Shown: positions 2,926-10,320 of the stretch, in pieces
Layout: every line of letters starts with the position of its first letter
How positions within the stretch are numbered: the first letter of the stretch is position 1
Assembly (NCBI GenBank): GCA_019348305.1
Contig: JAHWJQ010000063.1
Coordinates: forward strand, 1 to 10,320
Source of the DNA: Actinomycetota bacterium
GTDB taxonomy: Bacteria > Actinomycetota > Acidimicrobiia > Acidimicrobiales > CADCTF01
Direction: 5' to 3'
DNA length: 10,320 nucleotides
Made by a program: the position numbers and the translations under genes
Notes under the pieces: model-generated
What the model was told of the DNA's origin: nothing
The model's input: only the letters and a program-made list of their open reading frames with translations
The model's database searches: none

Positions 2926-4098
2926 TTACAGCTCGACGCCTAGGAGAGCGGCCGCCTCGCCCACCGGGCGCCCGGCAGCGGCAGCCAGGTCCACAGCAGC
3001 GAGCGCAGTGGGGGTGTCCAAATCGTCGTCGAGCGCCCCCCGGACCGCCTCCAGAACCGCGCTACCACCAGAGACGGAACCGGCCAGACGCCATCGCTCG
3101 AGTCGCTCGGCCGCCCGGGGGAGCAGGTCGGCCGTCCAGTCCCATGGGTGGCGGTAATGGTGGGCGAGCACGGCCAAGCGGATGGCGGCGGGCTCCCATT
3201 CCTTCAACAGGTCGCTCACGAACACGAGGTTGCCGAGGGACTTGGACATCTTGGTGCCCTGGTAGCTCACCAGCGGCGCGTGCAGCCAGTGGCGTACGAA
3301 CGGCTCCCCCGTAGCCGCCTCCGACTGGGCGGACTCGCATTCGTGGTGCGGGAAGATCAGGTCGGTGGCGCCACCGTGCAGGTCGATGGTGGTGCCCAAC
3401 TCCCGCAGAGCGAGCGCCGAGCACTCGATGTGCCAACCGGGTCGCCCCCGGCCCCACAGCGACTCCCACGCCGGCTCGTCGGGCGCCGACGGCTGCCACA
3501 ACACGAAGTCGAGGGGGTCACGCTTGACCGGGTCGTCCGGGCGGCCCCCGTTCTCTGCGGCCAGCCGCAGCATCGCCGGGCGGTCGAGGTGAGAGATCTT
3601 GCCGAACCCCTCGAAGCTGGCCACGGAGAAGTAGACCGAGCCGCCGGCCTGGTAGGCGTGGCCGGCGTCGAGGACCATGCCGATGAAGCCGAGGATGTCG
3701 GGGATGGCCGAGGTGGCGCGGGGCTCGCTGAAGGGCTCCAGCAGGTTGAGGGCCCTCATGCAGGAGTCGAAGCGGGCCATCTCCTCGGCCGCCAGGTCGA
3801 GGTAGAAGACCTCGAGCTGGCGGGCCTTGGCGAACAGCGGGTCGTCGATGTCGGTGATGTTGCGAACGCACTGGGTGCGATGGCCGCGGTCACGGAGCCG
3901 GCGCTGCAGCACGTCGTACAGGAGGTAGGTGGCGGCGTGGCCGAGGTGGGCGGAGTCGTAGGGGGTGATGCCGCAGGTGTACATCTTCACCCTCTGGCCC
4001 GGCTCGAAGGGCACGACCGCCTGGCGGGCGGTGTCGTACAGCCGCATCCCTCGAGACGCCTTGCCCGCCGAAGCGGCTGGGTGTGAGCCGGATCGCAT
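2926..4098 (-). CDS. mshC: Mycothiol biosynthesis cysteine ligase MshC
   Basis: ATP-dependent ligation of cysteine to glucosaminyl-inositol (GlcN-Ins), the third step of mycothiol synthesis, in the cytosol. It has 390 residues; M. tuberculosis MshC has about 414. The protein is a cysteinyl-tRNA-synthetase relative lacking the C-terminal tRNA-binding region. It shows CGITPYDSAHLGHAATY (42-58) with the zinc cysteine C42 and the HIGH-type HLGH (51-54), NITDIDDPLF (80-89), GRPGWHIECSALAL (218-231, C226), LIFPHHE (247-253), KMSKS (283-287) and a terminal DDLDTPTALAAVD...LLGVEL. The phrases PYDxxHLGHAATY and RPGWHxEC, and the short C-terminus, point to MshC rather than CysS. The ATG at 4098 has no obvious Shine-Dalgarno. 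An internal ATG at 4047 (residue 18) is an alternative, but known MshC proteins carry a similar stretch of about 20 residues before the RLYD segment. Mycothiol replaces glutathione in Actinobacteria, so this gene is the best taxonomic pointer in the window. Confidence 0.92.
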   Translation of the reverse strand: MRSGSHPAASAGKASRGMRLYDTARQAVVPFEPGQRVKMYTCGITPYDSAHLGHAATYLLYDVLQRRLRDRGHRTQCVRNITDIDDPLFAKARQLEVFYLDLAAEEMARFDSCMRALNLLEPFSEPRATSAIPDILGFIGMVLDAGHAYQAGGSVYFSVASFEGFGKISHLDRPAMLRLAAENGGRPDDPVKRDPLDFVLWQPSAPDEPAWESLWGRGRPGWHIECSALALRELGTTIDLHGGATDLIFPHHECESAQSEAATGEPFVRHWLHAPLVSYQGTKMSKSLGNLVFVSDLLKEWEPAAIRLAVLAHHYRHPWDWTADLLPRAAERLERWRLAGSVSGGSAVLEAVRGALDDDLDTPTALAAVDLAAAAGRPVGEAAALLGVEL

Positions 4099-6297: not shown

Positions 6298-7409
6298 CAG
6301 CGAGCCGCAAGGGCGTCGTCGAGCGCTGGATTTCGAGCGTCTTGCTGGCCCGGCCGCGGGGTGCGGCCACCCGCGCCGCGGTCGTGGCGGTGTCCACCGC
6401 TGCGGTCTTCGGGATCGGAGTGGTCGACTACGTCTCCGGTCAGAGGCTGTCGCTCGCCATCTTCTACCTGTTGCCGGTGATGGTCGTCGCCACCTTGGTC
6501 GGCAGTACCGCTGCCTACCTGCTCGCCATCGAGAGCGCGGTGGTGTCGGTTGCCGCCGAAGCCCTGCTCCAGCAGCACCCCGGTGTCGCCGCATCCGCCG
6601 CCAACGGCGCCGTTCGCGCCGCCACTCTGTCGGTGGTGGTAGTCCTCCTTACCGCGCTACGGCATTCGGTCGCCGAAGCCGAGACTTCGAGCCAGTCGGC
6701 AAAAGCGTTCCTCTCCACCGCCGCCCATCAACTGCGCACCCCCGTCACGGGGCTCGTCGTCACTGCCGAAGCCGTGGTGGCCGAGCCAGATCCCGCTCGG
6801 CGGGCCCGCCTCGCCGACACGCTCGCCGTTTCGACGGCCAGGGTGTCCCGGCTCTTGGGCCTGCTCCTCCACGTCGCCCGGCTCGACCAGGGAGGTGCCC
6901 TGCAACTCCGTCCCACGCGGCTCGACGAGATCGTGGAGCGTGAGGTGGAACTCGTAGCCCTGCGTCATCCGGAGGTCACCGTCCGCCTCGAGGACCAGCA
7001 CGTCCCCCTGGTACCACTCGACGGCCACGGCCTCGGAGAAGCCGTGGCCAACCTCTTGGACAACGCCGTCCGCCACGCACGAAGCGTCGTCAACGTCGTC
7101 GTCTACTCCGAGAGCGGTCAGCTCCTCCTCACAGTCGTCGACGACGGTCCAGGCGTCCCCTTCGGAGCAGAGGAAGTCATCTTCGACCGCTTCGTCAGTC
7201 TCGACGGCTGCGGCGGTAGCGGGCTCGGTCTGGCCATCGCCCGCGCCGCTGTCCAAGCGCACGGCGGGTCGCTGGTGTACCGGGCCGGCGGGTTCCACTT
7301 GCAGATTCCCATCCCCGTGGCCGGACGAAGGACCGACCGTCCGGGAGAGCCAGATCTGAGCGCGGCAGGCGACGGCCTGCCGGCTGTCACGGCAGAGAGA
7401 TGCCGGTGA
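6294..7409 (+). CDS. Membrane sensor histidine kinase, partner of the upstream regulator
   Basis: 371 residues. The ATG at 6294 overlaps the regulator's TGA (ATGA), so the two are translationally coupled. The open frame extends far upstream of this ATG, but that part lies inside the regulator gene in another frame and is not coding. The N-terminus has about four hydrophobic segments (28-44, 52-70, 72-90, 108-122) with little extracytoplasmic sequence, so it probably senses within the membrane or in the cytoplasm. The HisKA domain has AAHQLRTP with the phosphorylated H145. The HATPase domain has the N-box VANLLDNAVRH (251-261), G1 VVDDGPGVP (281-289), F-box IFDRF (296-300) and G2 GSGLGLAIARA (308-318). 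A 30-residue polar tail (343-371) follows the last strand and is encoded by DNA that includes a hairpin and the overlap with npdG. Confidence 0.94.
   Translation: MTASRKGVVERWISSVLLARPRGAATRAAVVAVSTAAVFGIGVVDYVSGQRLSLAIFYLLPVMVVATLVGSTAAYLLAIESAVVSVAAEALLQQHPGVAASAANGAVRAATLSVVVVLLTALRHSVAEAETSSQSAKAFLSTAAHQLRTPVTGLVVTAEAVVAEPDPARRARLADTLAVSTARVSRLLGLLLHVARLDQGGALQLRPTRLDEIVEREVELVALRHPEVTVRLEDQHVPLVPLDGHGLGEAVANLLDNAVRHARSVVNVVVYSESGQLLLTVVDDGPGVPFGAEEVIFDRFVSLDGCGGSGLGLAIARAAVQAHGGSLVYRAGGFHLQIPIPVAGRRTDRPGEPDLSAAGDGLPAVTAERCR
7363..7382. terminator. 8-bp GC hairpin just after the npdG stop, inside the kinase gene
   Basis: CGGCAGGC (7363-7370), loop GACG, GCCTGCCG (7375-7382) form a perfect 8-bp stem with a tetraloop. 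On the minus strand it begins 4 bases after the npdG stop codon, a typical terminator position. There is no T-run, as is common for actinobacterial hairpin terminators. On the plus strand it lies within the last codons of the histidine kinase. Terminator function is inferred. Confidence 0.45.
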
Positions 7410-8046
7410 GGCGGATCGCCGCCCTCGTCTTGTAGCGGACGTTCAGCTGCAGCAGCACCGCCGTCACCGCCTCGATCGGCATCGCGTTCGATAGGGAGCC
7501 GGCATTGAGCGGCCGCAGGTCGGGGATGAGGTCGACCAGCTCGGCGGTGGCGTCGTAGGCGTAGCGGTGGTCGCTGCAGATGAGGACGTCGGCGTCGATC
7601 GGCTTGTTGAGCGACGCCAGCGCCTTGGCCGGCAGGTGCTGGAAGGCGGCGGCGACCATCGCCCCTGGCGCGGCCGCTTGTACGTGCGCGGCCACCGAAC
7701 CGCGAGGCGGGACCAGCGGCTCGAACTCCTCCCCGACCCTCGCCAGCGCGTTGGCCATCGAGATCACCACCTTCCCGGTGATGCGGCCCTGGACGGAAGC
7801 CACGGTCGCGGCGGCGGCGTCCCACGGCGTGGCTACGACGACGATCTCGGCTGACGCGGCCCGCATGTTGTCGCCCGCCTCGAGCAGCAGGGTCTTGTCC
7901 GGCCAGGCCTTGCAGAGCGCCTCGCACGCCTCCTGGGCCCGCTCCTTGGACCGCGACCCGACCACCACCTCCAGGCCGGCGGCGGCGAGACGGGCGGCCA
8001 GGCCACTCCCGGCGGGACCGGTGCCTCCGAGGATTCCGACGTTCAC
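7387..8046 (-). CDS. npdG: F420H2:NADP+ oxidoreductase (F420-dependent NADP reductase)
   Basis: Transfers hydride between coenzyme F420 and NADP in the cytosol. It has 219 residues, the usual size for the Fno/NpdG family. The Rossmann nucleotide loop GGTGPAG (7-13) is followed by VVVGSRSKERA (27-37), where the SRS..R residues are expected to bind the NADP 2'-phosphate. Later family blocks are ATPWDAA (72-78), AFQHLPAKALASL (134-146), DADVLICSD (151-159) and LRPLNAGSLSNAMPIEAVTAVLL (177-199), close in order and spacing to the archaeal enzyme. The start is GTG at 8046, which overlaps the stop of the upstream EcsC-like gene as GTGA. The 3' end overlaps the convergent kinase gene by 23 bp. Its presence implies an F420-using organism. 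Its operon position behind an exported thioredoxin might link F420-derived reducing power to redox homeostasis, but that is only inference. Confidence 0.93.
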   Translation of the reverse strand: MNVGILGGTGPAGSGLAARLAAAGLEVVVGSRSKERAQEACEALCKAWPDKTLLLEAGDNMRAASAEIVVVATPWDAAAATVASVQGRITGKVVISMANALARVGEEFEPLVPPRGSVAAHVQAAAPGAMVAAAFQHLPAKALASLNKPIDADVLICSDHRYAYDATAELVDLIPDLRPLNAGSLSNAMPIEAVTAVLLQLNVRYKTRAAIRLTGISLP

Positions 8047-8810
8047 GGGGCAGAGACTCGCATGGCAGCGAGGTCGCGCACCACTGCCTCGCCCAGGCTG
8101 CGGGTGGCACGGCGGTTGACCTCGGCCCCGGCCACTGCGCCGGCGAGCAGCGGGGCCAGCGTCGAGAGGTTGCGGCCGAGGCGGCTCACCAGGCGGCGGC
8201 GAACCAGGCGCACCAGCTCGTTGCGGGTCCCCCGGCCGAGGGCGTCGGCCACTCCGCCGCGATGACGCAGCGCGGCAGGGTTGACACCCCTGCGTTCGGC
8301 CCAGGCCTTGACCAGGGCGACCGTGCGCTCGGTGCCGCTGCCCCGCACCGGCCGCCCGTAGACCTCGTGCAGCTCGCCCACCAGCTTCAACTCGATGACG
8401 GCGACGGCCAGCGTCTCGACCACCAGCTCGAAGGGCATGGTGACCCAGGCCGGGGGAGCGAACTGCTGGGCACTGATCACGGCGCCCGAAGCTGCCCCGA
8501 TGCCAGCGGACGCCCGGCTGGACCGGCGGATCAGCTCAGCGGCCAGCGCGGCACCCGACAGCCCGTGGTTCTGGGCCTGCAGGGTCTGTAGGTCCCGGAT
8601 CGGGATCCGGGGCGCCGTCTCGATGAGCGTGGTGGCCAGCCACTGCCCGCTGGCCACCGTCCGCGCGCCGGCGGCGCGGGCCGATCCGGCCAGAGCGCAA
8701 GCAAGGCGGGTGAGCGAGCGGGCGTCGGCACGGCCCTCCGCGATGTCGTGGACATCCTCATCGGGGACCACAGGCGGCTCTTCGACGAGCAGGTCATCAC
8801 CTTTCACCAT
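8043..8810 (-). CDS. EcsC-like protein of unknown function
   Basis: 255 residues; I do not recognise a defined function. The central part is alanine-rich with moderately hydrophobic stretches (GIGAASGAVISAQQF, 103-117; FELVVETLAVAVIELKLVGELHEVYG, 127-152). The end carries a Gly/Ala-rich stretch (LAPLLAGAVAGAEVNRRATRSLG, 218-240) resembling the C-terminus of EcsC or DUF697-type proteins. The ELKLVGELHEVYG block is the best family marker I see. It has no signal peptide and probably associates with the membrane. The open frame extends to 8996, but I start at 8810 because a strong GAAGGA sits 6 bases before that ATG and the longer version would overlap the end of the upstream thioredoxin gene. 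It begins 28 bp after that gene's stop and overlaps npdG by 4 bp, so the three genes look like one operon. Confidence 0.75.
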   Translation of the reverse strand: MVKGDDLLVEEPPVVPDEDVHDIAEGRADARSLTRLACALAGSARAAGARTVASGQWLATTLIETAPRIPIRDLQTLQAQNHGLSGAALAAELIRRSSRASAGIGAASGAVISAQQFAPPAWVTMPFELVVETLAVAVIELKLVGELHEVYGRPVRGSGTERTVALVKAWAERRGVNPAALRHRGGVADALGRGTRNELVRLVRRRLVSRLGRNLSTLAPLLAGAVAGAEVNRRATRSLGEAVVRDLAAMRVSAP

Positions 8811-8838
8811 TTGACGTCCTTCCCCGAGATGCCCGACC

Positions 8839-9384
8839 TCAGGCATCCACCAGACGGTTGAGTCGATCCTGGAGGCCTTTGGCACCCAACTCCCCGAAGA
8901 CCTTCTCCGATTTGCCGTCGGGGCTGACGAAGATCCAGGTGGGCTGGCCGACGACACCGAGGCGGCTTCGCAGCGAACCCTGCGCATCGGCGGCATTGGG
9001 AAAGCCCCTCAGGTCATGCTTGGAGACGAACGACTCCAGCGCTGCCGAACTGTCGTTGCTGCCGATGCCGACGAACTGCGCCTCTTCCTCGAACTGGCGC
9101 GCAACCTGCGCGACCGCCGGGGCCTCCCGGTTGCAAGAGCTTCACCAGGGGGACCAGAACCAGAGGACGACAGGACGACCGGCATACGCGGAGGCTTCGA
9201 CCTCACCGCCCCCGATCGCGGCAGCAGTGAAGTCGAGTGGGGCCGGCACCCCCGCCGCGCCCTGGGGGGCTGCGGGCGAAGCCGGCGCCCGTTGCGCAAC
9301 CGGTGCCGCGGGCTCGCCGCCGTTGCCACACGCGCTCAGGACCAACCCGAGGGCAGTGAGGCAGATGGCGAGGGCACGCGGCAT
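8839..9384 (-). CDS. Putative selenocysteine-containing lipoprotein thioredoxin (DsbE/MPT53-like), UGA at active site
   Basis: Reads as a 181-residue exported thiol-disulfide oxidoreductase if the in-frame UGA at 9142-9144 (codon 81) is decoded as selenocysteine. The lipoprotein signal ends in the lipobox LSAC with C19, followed by a Gly/Ala/Pro-rich linker and the fold: PLDFTAAAIGG, GRPVVLWFWSPW (69-80), then UGA-S-S-C-NREAP with resolving C84, VARQFEEEAQFVGIG, ALESFVSKHDL, and GVVGQPTWIFVSPDG with the cis-proline P148. The pattern closely resembles mycobacterial MPT53/DsbE, where this site is WCxxC. UGA therefore replaces exactly the catalytic N-terminal cysteine. Codon use stays GC-rich after it and no other stop or frameshift occurs before the TGA at 8839. 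Terminated at codon 81, the protein would lack its whole redox centre. It is followed by the EcsC-like gene (28 bp) and npdG. Selenocysteine is inferred; a nonsense mutation or sequencing error is the alternative. No sel genes are in the window. Confidence 0.82.
9101..9144 (-). promoter_or_regulatory. Candidate bacterial SECIS element directly after the UGA
   Basis: In the minus-strand mRNA, the UGA at 9144-9142 is followed after 11 bases by CCGGG-AGGC-CCCGG (9130-9117), a 5-bp GC stem whose loop starts 17 bases after the UGA and has G at its second and third positions. A second arrangement is a perfect GCAACC/GGUUGC stem (9134-9129 with 9106-9101) enclosing a GGUC (9115-9112) flanked by GC on both sides, reminiscent of the GGUC apical loop of E. 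coli fdhF. The two share bases, so they are partly exclusive. Bacterial SECIS elements lie just 3' of the UGA with a G in the first loop positions, which both fit. GC-rich coding DNA forms hairpins easily, so this is support rather than proof. Confidence 0.5.
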
Positions 9385-9460: not shown

Positions 9461-10320
9461 TCAGCAGTACCGCGACAGGGTCGAGTACGGGTTGACGGCT
9501 CCGCCGCCGTTGGGATGGATCTCGAAATGCAGGTGCGGAGTGCCCCGGGCGTTGCCCGAGTCGCCGACGTAGCCGATCACCGTGCCTGCCGCGACCTGAC
9601 CGCCTGCCGCAAACCCCTGAAGGTGGGTCCCGAAGTAGGTGTGGCCGTCGTTGCCCTTGAGGTAGTAGGAGAGGCCGCCGAGGCTGGAGTTGTGGTGCTT
9701 CACTGTTCCGGCGACATTGGCCACGACCGGCGTCCCGCGGGGCGACAGGATGTCGTTGCCCTGATGACTGCGGCCCCCTGAGCGGGGCTGGCCCCAGTCG
9801 TTGGAGAAGGCGCGTGGCCCCTGCACGGGACAGATCCACTCGCCGCTGGCGATGACGCCGGCGGCCCGCCGCGCCGCGGGTGCCGCCGCTGGCCGCACCG
9901 CCGCTCGGGACGCTGCGGCCTTCTGGGCGGCTGCCCGGCGCGCCGCGGCCTCCCGCTCTGCAGCCAGCCGGGCCAGGTGCTGCTTTTCGACCGCGGCCAG
10001 GCGCGTCAGCTCCTTGTAGGCGGCCGTCTTCTGCTGCTGGAGCTTGGCCGCCGCCGCCCGGCGGTCGGCCGTTTGCTTCCGCACCGCGGCGGAGCCGGCC
10101 TCGAGGTCTTCGCGGGCCGCCCGGTAGTCGTCGATGGCATCGGTGTTGCCCAGGTTCACGTACCGGGCCAGGGCCTGCTGGCGGGAGGTCTTGCTCAGGT
10201 CGTTGTCGAAGACGAAGACCGACCCGGAACCGTTGTGTAGGTAGGAGTTGATCGCAACCTGTTTGACCTGCCCCTCGAGCCCTGAGATCCGGGATCGGGT
10301 GGCGGCCGTCTTGGCCTCGA
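9461..10320 (-). CDS. M23-family peptidoglycan endopeptidase with N-terminal coiled coil (5' end outside window)
   Basis: The last 285 residues of a larger secreted protein; the frame is open across the right edge, so the signal peptide lies outside. An internal GTG at 10159 is in frame but is not a credible start, because coding continues upstream (…SRISGLEGQVKQ…VFVFDNDLSKTSRQQALARY…). Residues 1-150 in the window form an Ala/Arg/Gln/Glu-rich coiled coil typical of cell-division-type or envelope M23 proteins. The C-terminal LytM/M23 domain (about 160-285) has SHQGND, with zinc ligands H185 and D189, H232 in GTHL, and PHLHFEIHP with H262 and H264. It is expected to cut peptidoglycan cross-bridges or to activate amidases outside the cell; all catalytic residues are present, so it is likely active. 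Two cysteines, C163 (EWICPVQG) and the C-terminal C285, bracket the domain and may form a disulfide. The gene ends 76 bp before the thioredoxin lipoprotein. Confidence 0.93.
   Translation of the reverse strand, partial: EAKTAATRSRISGLEGQVKQVAINSYLHNGSGSVFVFDNDLSKTSRQQALARYVNLGNTDAIDDYRAAREDLEAGSAAVRKQTADRRAAAAKLQQQKTAAYKELTRLAAVEKQHLARLAAEREAAARRAAAQKAAASRAAVRPAAAPAARRAAGVIASGEWICPVQGPRAFSNDWGQPRSGGRSHQGNDILSPRGTPVVANVAGTVKHHNSSLGGLSYYLKGNDGHTYFGTHLQGFAAGGQVAAGTVIGYVGDSGNARGTPHLHFEIHPNGGGAVNPYSTLSRYC

Follow-up and report, generated by a model that had tools for sequence, protein, structure and literature searches.

The UGA at codon 81 of a minus-strand gene at 8839..9384 of the window, by which we mean the whole 10,320-nucleotide stretch of DNA that was analysed, is very probably a selenocysteine (Sec) codon, and by its sequence the gene would encode an exported DsbE/DsbF-like thioredoxin-fold oxidoreductase of an Acidimicrobiales bacterium. 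We favor this reading because the place of the TGA is conserved among relatives, shortened open reading frames end at the same residue, a hairpin follows the codon and SelA, SelB and tRNA-Sec co-occur with TGA-containing genes. The initial annotation had called the gene a likely UxxC selenoprotein of the DsbE/MPT53 kind, and the same observations, including a hairpin test on held-out loci, support that call.

An in-frame UGA at the redox site

Read through, the frame comprises 181 codons and a stop, from an ATG at 9384-9382 to a terminal TGA at 8841-8839 on the minus strand. As initially annotated, it is broken only by UGA at codon 81 (9142..9144, minus strand; TGA at 9144-9142), the sole in-frame stop ahead of the terminal one. 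The 181-residue read-through product, MPRALAICLTALGLVLSAC...VVLWFWSPW-U-SSC-NREAP...VGQPTWIFV...VDA, contains the elements that had been assigned to a single thioredoxin fold. These are the lipobox VLSAC19 (L16-S-A-C19; 9328..9339, minus strand), read by eye as part of a predicted lipoprotein signal peptide; the WFWSPW stretch; the resolving Cys of UxxC, encoded by TGC at codon 84 (9133..9135, minus strand) and placed by sequence and alignment; and a QPT loop holding Pro148 (8941..8943, minus strand), which aligns with 3ios and 1lu4 and would be the cis-proline of the fold, as its family suggests.

The best Pfam family is AhpC-TSA (PF00578; 63.7 bits, cut-off 26), and Redoxin (PF08534) also scores (48.3 bits, cut-off 26.6). 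The closest PDB entries by sequence are DsbF (3ios, E 9.7e-29) and MPT53 (1lu4, E 3.2e-25). Both carry Cys at the position of the UGA, the first Cys of WxPWCxxC in homologues, in line with the earlier placement of the UGA at the catalytic Cys of WCxxC. A predicted structure (pLDDT 87.2, built from a 7-row alignment) matched the same entries (3ios, TMt 0.95, rmsd 1.1; 1lu4, TMt 0.90). Its predicted fold and closest kinship place the protein in the DsbE/DsbF (MPT53) group, whose members have a thioredoxin fold. Six homologues from the protein search (P0003-P0008) also have Cys at the position aligned to codon 81 (6/6), an observation that is barely informative because gene callers stop at TGA.

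None of the ten further frames in the window taken as genes has an internal stop (that of ThrS runs off the window), and seven of the nine other genes that end within the window terminate in TGA; TGA is therefore not reassigned throughout. That UGA is read as Trp or Cys, through a code change or Sec-free readthrough, has a negligible probability: TGA terminates the gene itself as well as those seven, the TGA codons of relatives are confined to two redox positions, SelA co-occurs and a SECIS-type hairpin is present.

Conservation of the TGA among relatives

Among related loci, 92 of them distinct, TGA lies exactly at the codon-81 site in 84, at identities of 29-48% to the window; the count is not a frequency, because most loci were fetched on account of a TGA in the search listing. 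Ninety-three loci were fetched and one duplicate was removed (L007-L015, L017-L036, L107-L150 and L188-L207); L016, L151 and the Cys loci L001-L003 and L208-L227 were omitted from this check. The 92 comprise 76 with TGA at the first site, eight with TGA at both redox positions and eight with Cys codons. Within the aligned region of the 84 TGA loci, TGA occurs only at the two redox positions, and there are no further stops. The position of the stop was unselected in this set, and it is always a redox codon, far beyond chance. The initial annotation had suggested aligning homologues and looking for scattered stops in relatives; the first gave Cys in the protein-search homologues and TGA in these loci, and the second gave none in the aligned region.

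When stops were read through in a search of 396 Actinomycetota genomes, exactly one TGA was present in 18 of the 20 best places, including all of the first nine. In the order of genome G287 (248 genomes), one TGA was present in 17 of the 20 best places. In one match (G462:C62), an extra TAA was traced to the terminal stop of the gene itself. Plasmids yielded 88 matching records, each below 60% identity.

With the 80-residue fragment as the query, seven other database proteins were found (41-72% identity), all of which end ...LWFWSPW just before the UGA (7/7), as expected from the earlier remark that ordinary annotation would yield an 80-residue fragment. Because ordinary gene calling cuts the window gene and these seven fragments at the UGA, an extracytoplasmic redox enzyme group is likely missing from actinobacterial proteomes. 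Lipobox-like motifs are present in all seven shortened relatives, 69 of the 84 TGA loci fit a loose lipobox pattern, and C19 is invariant in the homologue alignment. Together with the lipobox seen by eye, these motifs suggest that the protein is probably exported as a lipoprotein.

Host lineage and locus

An MshC-like cysteine ligase of mycothiol synthesis (2926..4098, minus strand; TIGR03447 418.6 bits, below the cut-off of 485.1) has Acidimicrobiales matches and served as the lineage marker. It is nearest to proteins of Actinomycetota and Acidimicrobiales MAGs (P0010, 89%; P0012, 87%), placing the lineage in Acidimicrobiales, which agrees with the actinobacterial host proposed initially. The MshC-like protein also falls barely under the CysS cut-off (339.3 versus 340), and its relatives are labelled cysteine--tRNA ligase in some public records.

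The upstream neighbor, truncated by the end of the window, encodes a peptidase M23 protein (9461..10318, minus strand; PF01551, 3.4e-15) and is syntenic in G516 and G541. Downstream lie a conserved neighbor with no Pfam or NCBIfam match (8043..8834, minus strand; syntenic in G541) and the NADPH-dependent F420 reductase NpdG (7387..8046, minus strand; TIGR01915 183.6 bits, over the cut-off of 149.8). The 8043-8834 neighbor is placed by tblastn near MshC in G541, G403, G406, G465 and G526. In G516 and G541, the TGA gene stands in the conserved order M23 - Sec gene - NpdG - MshC - ThrS.

The nearest relative compared, G423, is 89.7% identical in DNA over 7.4 kb (MshC, 95%). Its copy of the gene (L178 on G423:C87) is missing ~371 nt of its interior, the UGA site included, between intact flanks; unless the assembly is faulty here, a near relative can do without the gene. 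SelA and SelD are over cut-off in G423, and its best tRNA-Sec match, at 43.6 bits, is below the cut-off of 47. Genome G465 gave no SelA match, and the gene is missing there from its place between M23 and the gene that follows; G403 and G406 have SelA and no such gene at the locus. The gene seems old at the locus yet patchy and was probably lost more than once. This patchy presence is a reason for caution on the importance of the gene in the strain of the window, not on the meaning of the UGA.

Both the deletion in the nearest compared copy and the SelA-bearing relatives without the gene would suit a pseudogene, in which UGA81 would have arisen by nonsense mutation as a Cys gene decayed, an explanation that we consider very improbable. 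Decay would scatter stops, whereas TGA stands at the same codon in 84 of 92 loci with no other stop, and all seven shortened relatives end at an identical residue. The G423 deletion is a separate event that takes the UGA site with it. By these sequence comparisons, decay as the origin of UGA81 appears refuted already.

Hairpins downstream of the UGA

The 50 nt after the UGA of the window, folded alone, show no unusual stability (z -0.67). The information came from comparison across the family and with synonymous shuffles. Published bSECIS limits, as given in the available text of PMC13188914, are a loop of 3-9 nt, a stem of 4-16 bp, a distance of 16-37 nt from the UGA, G in the first two loop positions and an energy of -7.5 kcal/mol or lower.

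Two hairpin positions are found in the family: A, with loop GGUC at 26 nt, and B, with loop AGGUN or AGUUG at 34 nt after the UGA. The window has the SECIS-type hairpin B, CGCGC-[AGGUU]-GCGCG (9098..9112, minus strand), with 5 bp and the apical loop 34 nt after the UGA; its bare 15 nt fold at -7.4 kcal/mol, slightly short of the published -7.5. With at least 4 bp, hairpin B is present in 19 of 55 UxxC-TGA genes (window counted) versus none of 11 Cys genes. Hairpin A or B (at least 4 bp) is present in 49 of the 55 UxxC genes, including that of the window, and in 7/8 UxxU genes versus 0/11 Cys genes, in a count of related loci whose sites were chosen by motif search (L109, L126 and L146 were missed), whose identical stretches were counted once and whose Cys controls are partly more distant. 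In 300 synonymous-codon shuffles of the 55 UxxC genes, which draw on the codon use of the set itself, the number with A or B averaged 13.3 and was at most 20, versus 49 for the real genes.

Because the hairpin positions had been picked on this discovery set, 20 further TGA loci and 20 further Cys loci were fetched. Hairpin A or B was present in 18/20 of these held-out TGA loci versus 0/20 Cys loci, the held-out loci being related to the discovery set. Shuffles of the held-out loci gave a mean of 5.6 and a maximum of 12, and none of 1,000 rounds reached 18. At +10, Val is encoded by GTC or GTT in all 55 UxxC genes and by GTG in 6 of the 11 Cys genes. When the best hairpin across the whole published bSECIS range was compared with synonymous shuffles, TGA genes showed a modest excess (mean z -0.86, sem 0.13), and the mean z of Cys genes was -0.32 (sem 0.26).

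A second hairpin in the window, CCGGG-[AGGC]-CCCGG (9117..9130, minus strand; loop 16 nt after the UGA, -8.2 kcal/mol), lies within all published bSECIS limits. It is no family feature, being present with at least 4 bp at the exact place in 2/55 TGA genes and 1/11 Cys genes.

A sequencing or assembly error, with TGC or TGT as the true codon, is extremely unlikely, as TGA stands at this codon in many separate assemblies and the RNA hairpin accompanies TGA, not Cys.

Sec machinery in genomes with the TGA gene

We surveyed 60 genomes, 34 with a one-TGA match among the matches listed (site verified in 23) and 26 without. Again among the matches listed, SelB was over cut-off in 30/34 TGA genomes versus 11/26 others, tRNA-Sec in 30/34 versus 13/26 and SelA in 29/34 versus 14/26 (Fisher p 0.01, kinship ignored). 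Including split or contig-cut SelA matches (G282 and G256 on one side, G203 on the other) gave 31/34 versus 15/26 among the matches listed (p 0.004, kinship ignored). No SelA match was found in the TGA-match genomes G272, G259 and G181, which were counted against the Sec reading.

SelA was also searched in 73 genomes of the order of G287, of which 33 carry a verified TGA gene (part of those matched). The 40 others comprise ten near the window by MshC, five with a Cys match and 25 without a match at E 1e-18. All 33 TGA genomes had a SelA match (32 over cut-off) versus 24 of the 40 others (22 over cut-off; p 2e-5, kinship ignored). Over the 10.3-kb window itself, Rfam and ARAGORN gave no match.

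UxxU, Cys and tandem relatives

Eight relatives (L132-L139, from G489, G490, G589, G572, G495, G611, G549 and G525) have the motif WAPW-U-P-[F/H]-U, all eight loci being flagged with two TGA codons. They form one clade in a quick tree (SH-aLRT 100), hairpin A is present in seven of them, and a SelA match was found in 8/8 of the genomes. In each of the three UxxU genomes tested (G489, G490 and G589), tRNA-Sec exceeded its cut-off and selD contained one TGA. This in-frame TGA in selD (L234, L235) probably marks a Sec-containing SelD.

The tree, made by the quick method from 117 rows and 135 columns, left 46 of 113 inner branches open, and gain and loss are not distinguishable in it; one Cys row is missing because row L016 took the neighboring TGA gene. 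A Cys clade comprising L225 (G434), L025, L029 and L224 is nested among the Sec genes and may represent a Sec-to-Cys reversion. Among the four genomes of this clade, SelA gave no match in G377, G434 and G402 and a match in G287. Gene L225 retains GGTCGCAG-AGGTC, which resembles the hairpin A region. Tandem copies also occur: two TGA genes are adjacent in G490:C11 (L125/L151), and in G159:C154 a Cys copy lies beside a TGA copy (L016, L146).

A large radiation of exported DsbE/DsbF-like selenoproteins, so far unannotated, is likely to exist in Acidimicrobiales and other Actinomycetota, often with several copies in one genome. It would have two alternative conserved SECIS hairpins, a UxxU clade of exported diselenide oxidoreductases and lineages that reverted to Cys as selA was lost. 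The SECIS patterns provide a concrete rule for re-annotation, and the mix of Sec, Cys and UxxU forms within one family makes the effect of Sec outside the cell testable. Acidimicrobiales are known mainly as aerobes. An exported Sec family with multiple copies in this order would thus be at odds with the picture in the available text of PMC13188914, according to which selenoproteins are seldom retained by aerobic bacteria and organisms rich in them are mostly anaerobes.

Proposed mechanism and function

In the mechanism that we propose, SelB would bring Sec-tRNA to UGA81, with the hairpin shortly downstream in the mRNA acting as the SECIS, and the resulting active site would be W-S-P-W-Sec-S-S-Cys. 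Sec81 would be the attacking nucleophile and Cys84 the resolving residue, with a Sec81-Cys84 selenenylsulfide forming on turnover. Anchored by its lipid, the protein would act as a thiol-disulfide oxidoreductase outside the cytoplasmic membrane.

The function that we prefer, at about even odds, is that of a reductase fed by a CcdA/DsbD-type membrane carrier and repairing extracytoplasmic proteins, for example as a donor to methionine sulfoxide reductase. A hint of a reductase comes from G453 (L160) and G405 (L162), in which an MsrA gene lies at most ~0.3 kb downstream on the same strand. DsbD_TM-like neighbors were found at L023 (22.5 bits, short of the 27.1-bit cut-off) and at L029 (38.5 bits, though this is a Cys gene). 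By analogy, likeness to the pneumococcal Etrx lipoproteins would also speak for reduction. Neither CcdA nor MsrA was seen in the window itself, and a Pfam match was absent in 3/5 of the neighbors taken as CcdA. Because the gene context varies by subgroup, we claim no single operon partner.

Mycobacterial MPT53 and DsbF are reported as disulfide oxidases. It is quite possible, if a little less to be expected than a reductase, that the window protein is a true selenoprotein acting as a disulfide oxidase or a peroxidase-like enzyme, a reading that differs in function alone. It fits DsbF and MPT53 as the closest structures and AhpC-TSA as the best Pfam family, whereas the MsrA neighbors of two relatives and the DsbD_TM-like neighbors of two others (one below cut-off, one beside a Cys gene) suggest a reductive route, a context that comes from other subgroups and not from the window.

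Comparison with known selenoproteins and thioredoxin-fold enzymes

The statement in the initial annotation that UxxC centers are known from other bacterial thioredoxin-fold selenoproteins holds: the available text of two reviews (2022, PMC9312934; 2026, PMC13188914) catalogues Prx-like thiol:disulfide oxidoreductase selenoproteins of PF00578 with UxxC or UxxU, with WP_010940744.1 as an example. In the accessible parts of earlier papers, a GOS table lists 'Prx-like 1' (pfam00578, UxxC, 225 sequences; PMC2398784), and Prx-like thiol:disulfide oxidoreductases are among the selenoproteins of a 2006 paper, with eight cases (PMC1794560). The same 2006 text counts Actinobacteria among three phyla rich in selenoproteins and gives them 19 selenoproteins from 12 families; Symbiobacterium accounts for 12 of the 19. 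Going by these texts, the window protein would belong with the Prx-like catalogue family, defined by PF00578 with UxxC or UxxU: it has PF00578 and UxxC, and its relatives include the catalogued UxxU form. It differs in coming from an actinobacterial DsbE/DsbF-like lipoprotein group, the catalogued examples having been compared by description. Two further entries in the available text of PMC13188914, 'Redoxin family protein' (PF08534) and 'Thiol-disulfide isomerase-like protein' (cd02966), have UxxC like the window protein; by their descriptions, one of them could include its group.

The ResA-like WAxxUGC selenoprotein family NF041054 of NCBIfam has the motif UGC and 354 positions. Membership was rejected, as the window protein scores 22.8 bits, far below the curated cut-off of 300. 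SelL is a UxxU diselenide protein that resembles the UxxU relatives L132-L139, whereas the window gene itself is UxxC. In the part of PMC2398784 available, SelL is named as a Prx-like protein.

The surface thioredoxin lipoproteins Etrx1 and Etrx2 of Streptococcus pneumoniae, described in the accessible text of PMC3914529 with methionine sulfoxide reductase as their redox partner, share a TlpA-like fold, and 4hqs and 2yp6 are among the fold matches of the model. They differ in being Firmicute Cys enzymes, and for the group of the window protein an MsrA/CcdA link is merely hinted at. MPT53 (1lu4) and DsbF (3ios) of Mycobacterium tuberculosis are alike in W-x-P-W-C-x-x-C, with 38-39% identity over the domain; they have Cys where the window gene has UGA, and the lineage of the window is Acidimicrobiales.

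The initial annotation had called such a protein possibly undescribed. In the available text of the 2026 review (PMC13188914), the strings 'actino', 'DsbE' and 'MPT53' occur 0 times, and a full-text literature search, in the titles and beginnings of abstracts that it returned, gave nothing tying a DsbE/MPT53-like selenoprotein to Acidimicrobiia or Actinomycetota. The claim stands at most for the subfamily and falls for the wider class: as far as these sources extend, UxxC and UxxU thioredoxin-fold selenoproteins, including those in PF00578 (PMC13188914, PMC9312934), are already known, and the new part is at most an actinobacterial DsbE/DsbF-like lipoprotein subfamily, of which the UxxU clade among the relatives is the most novel part.
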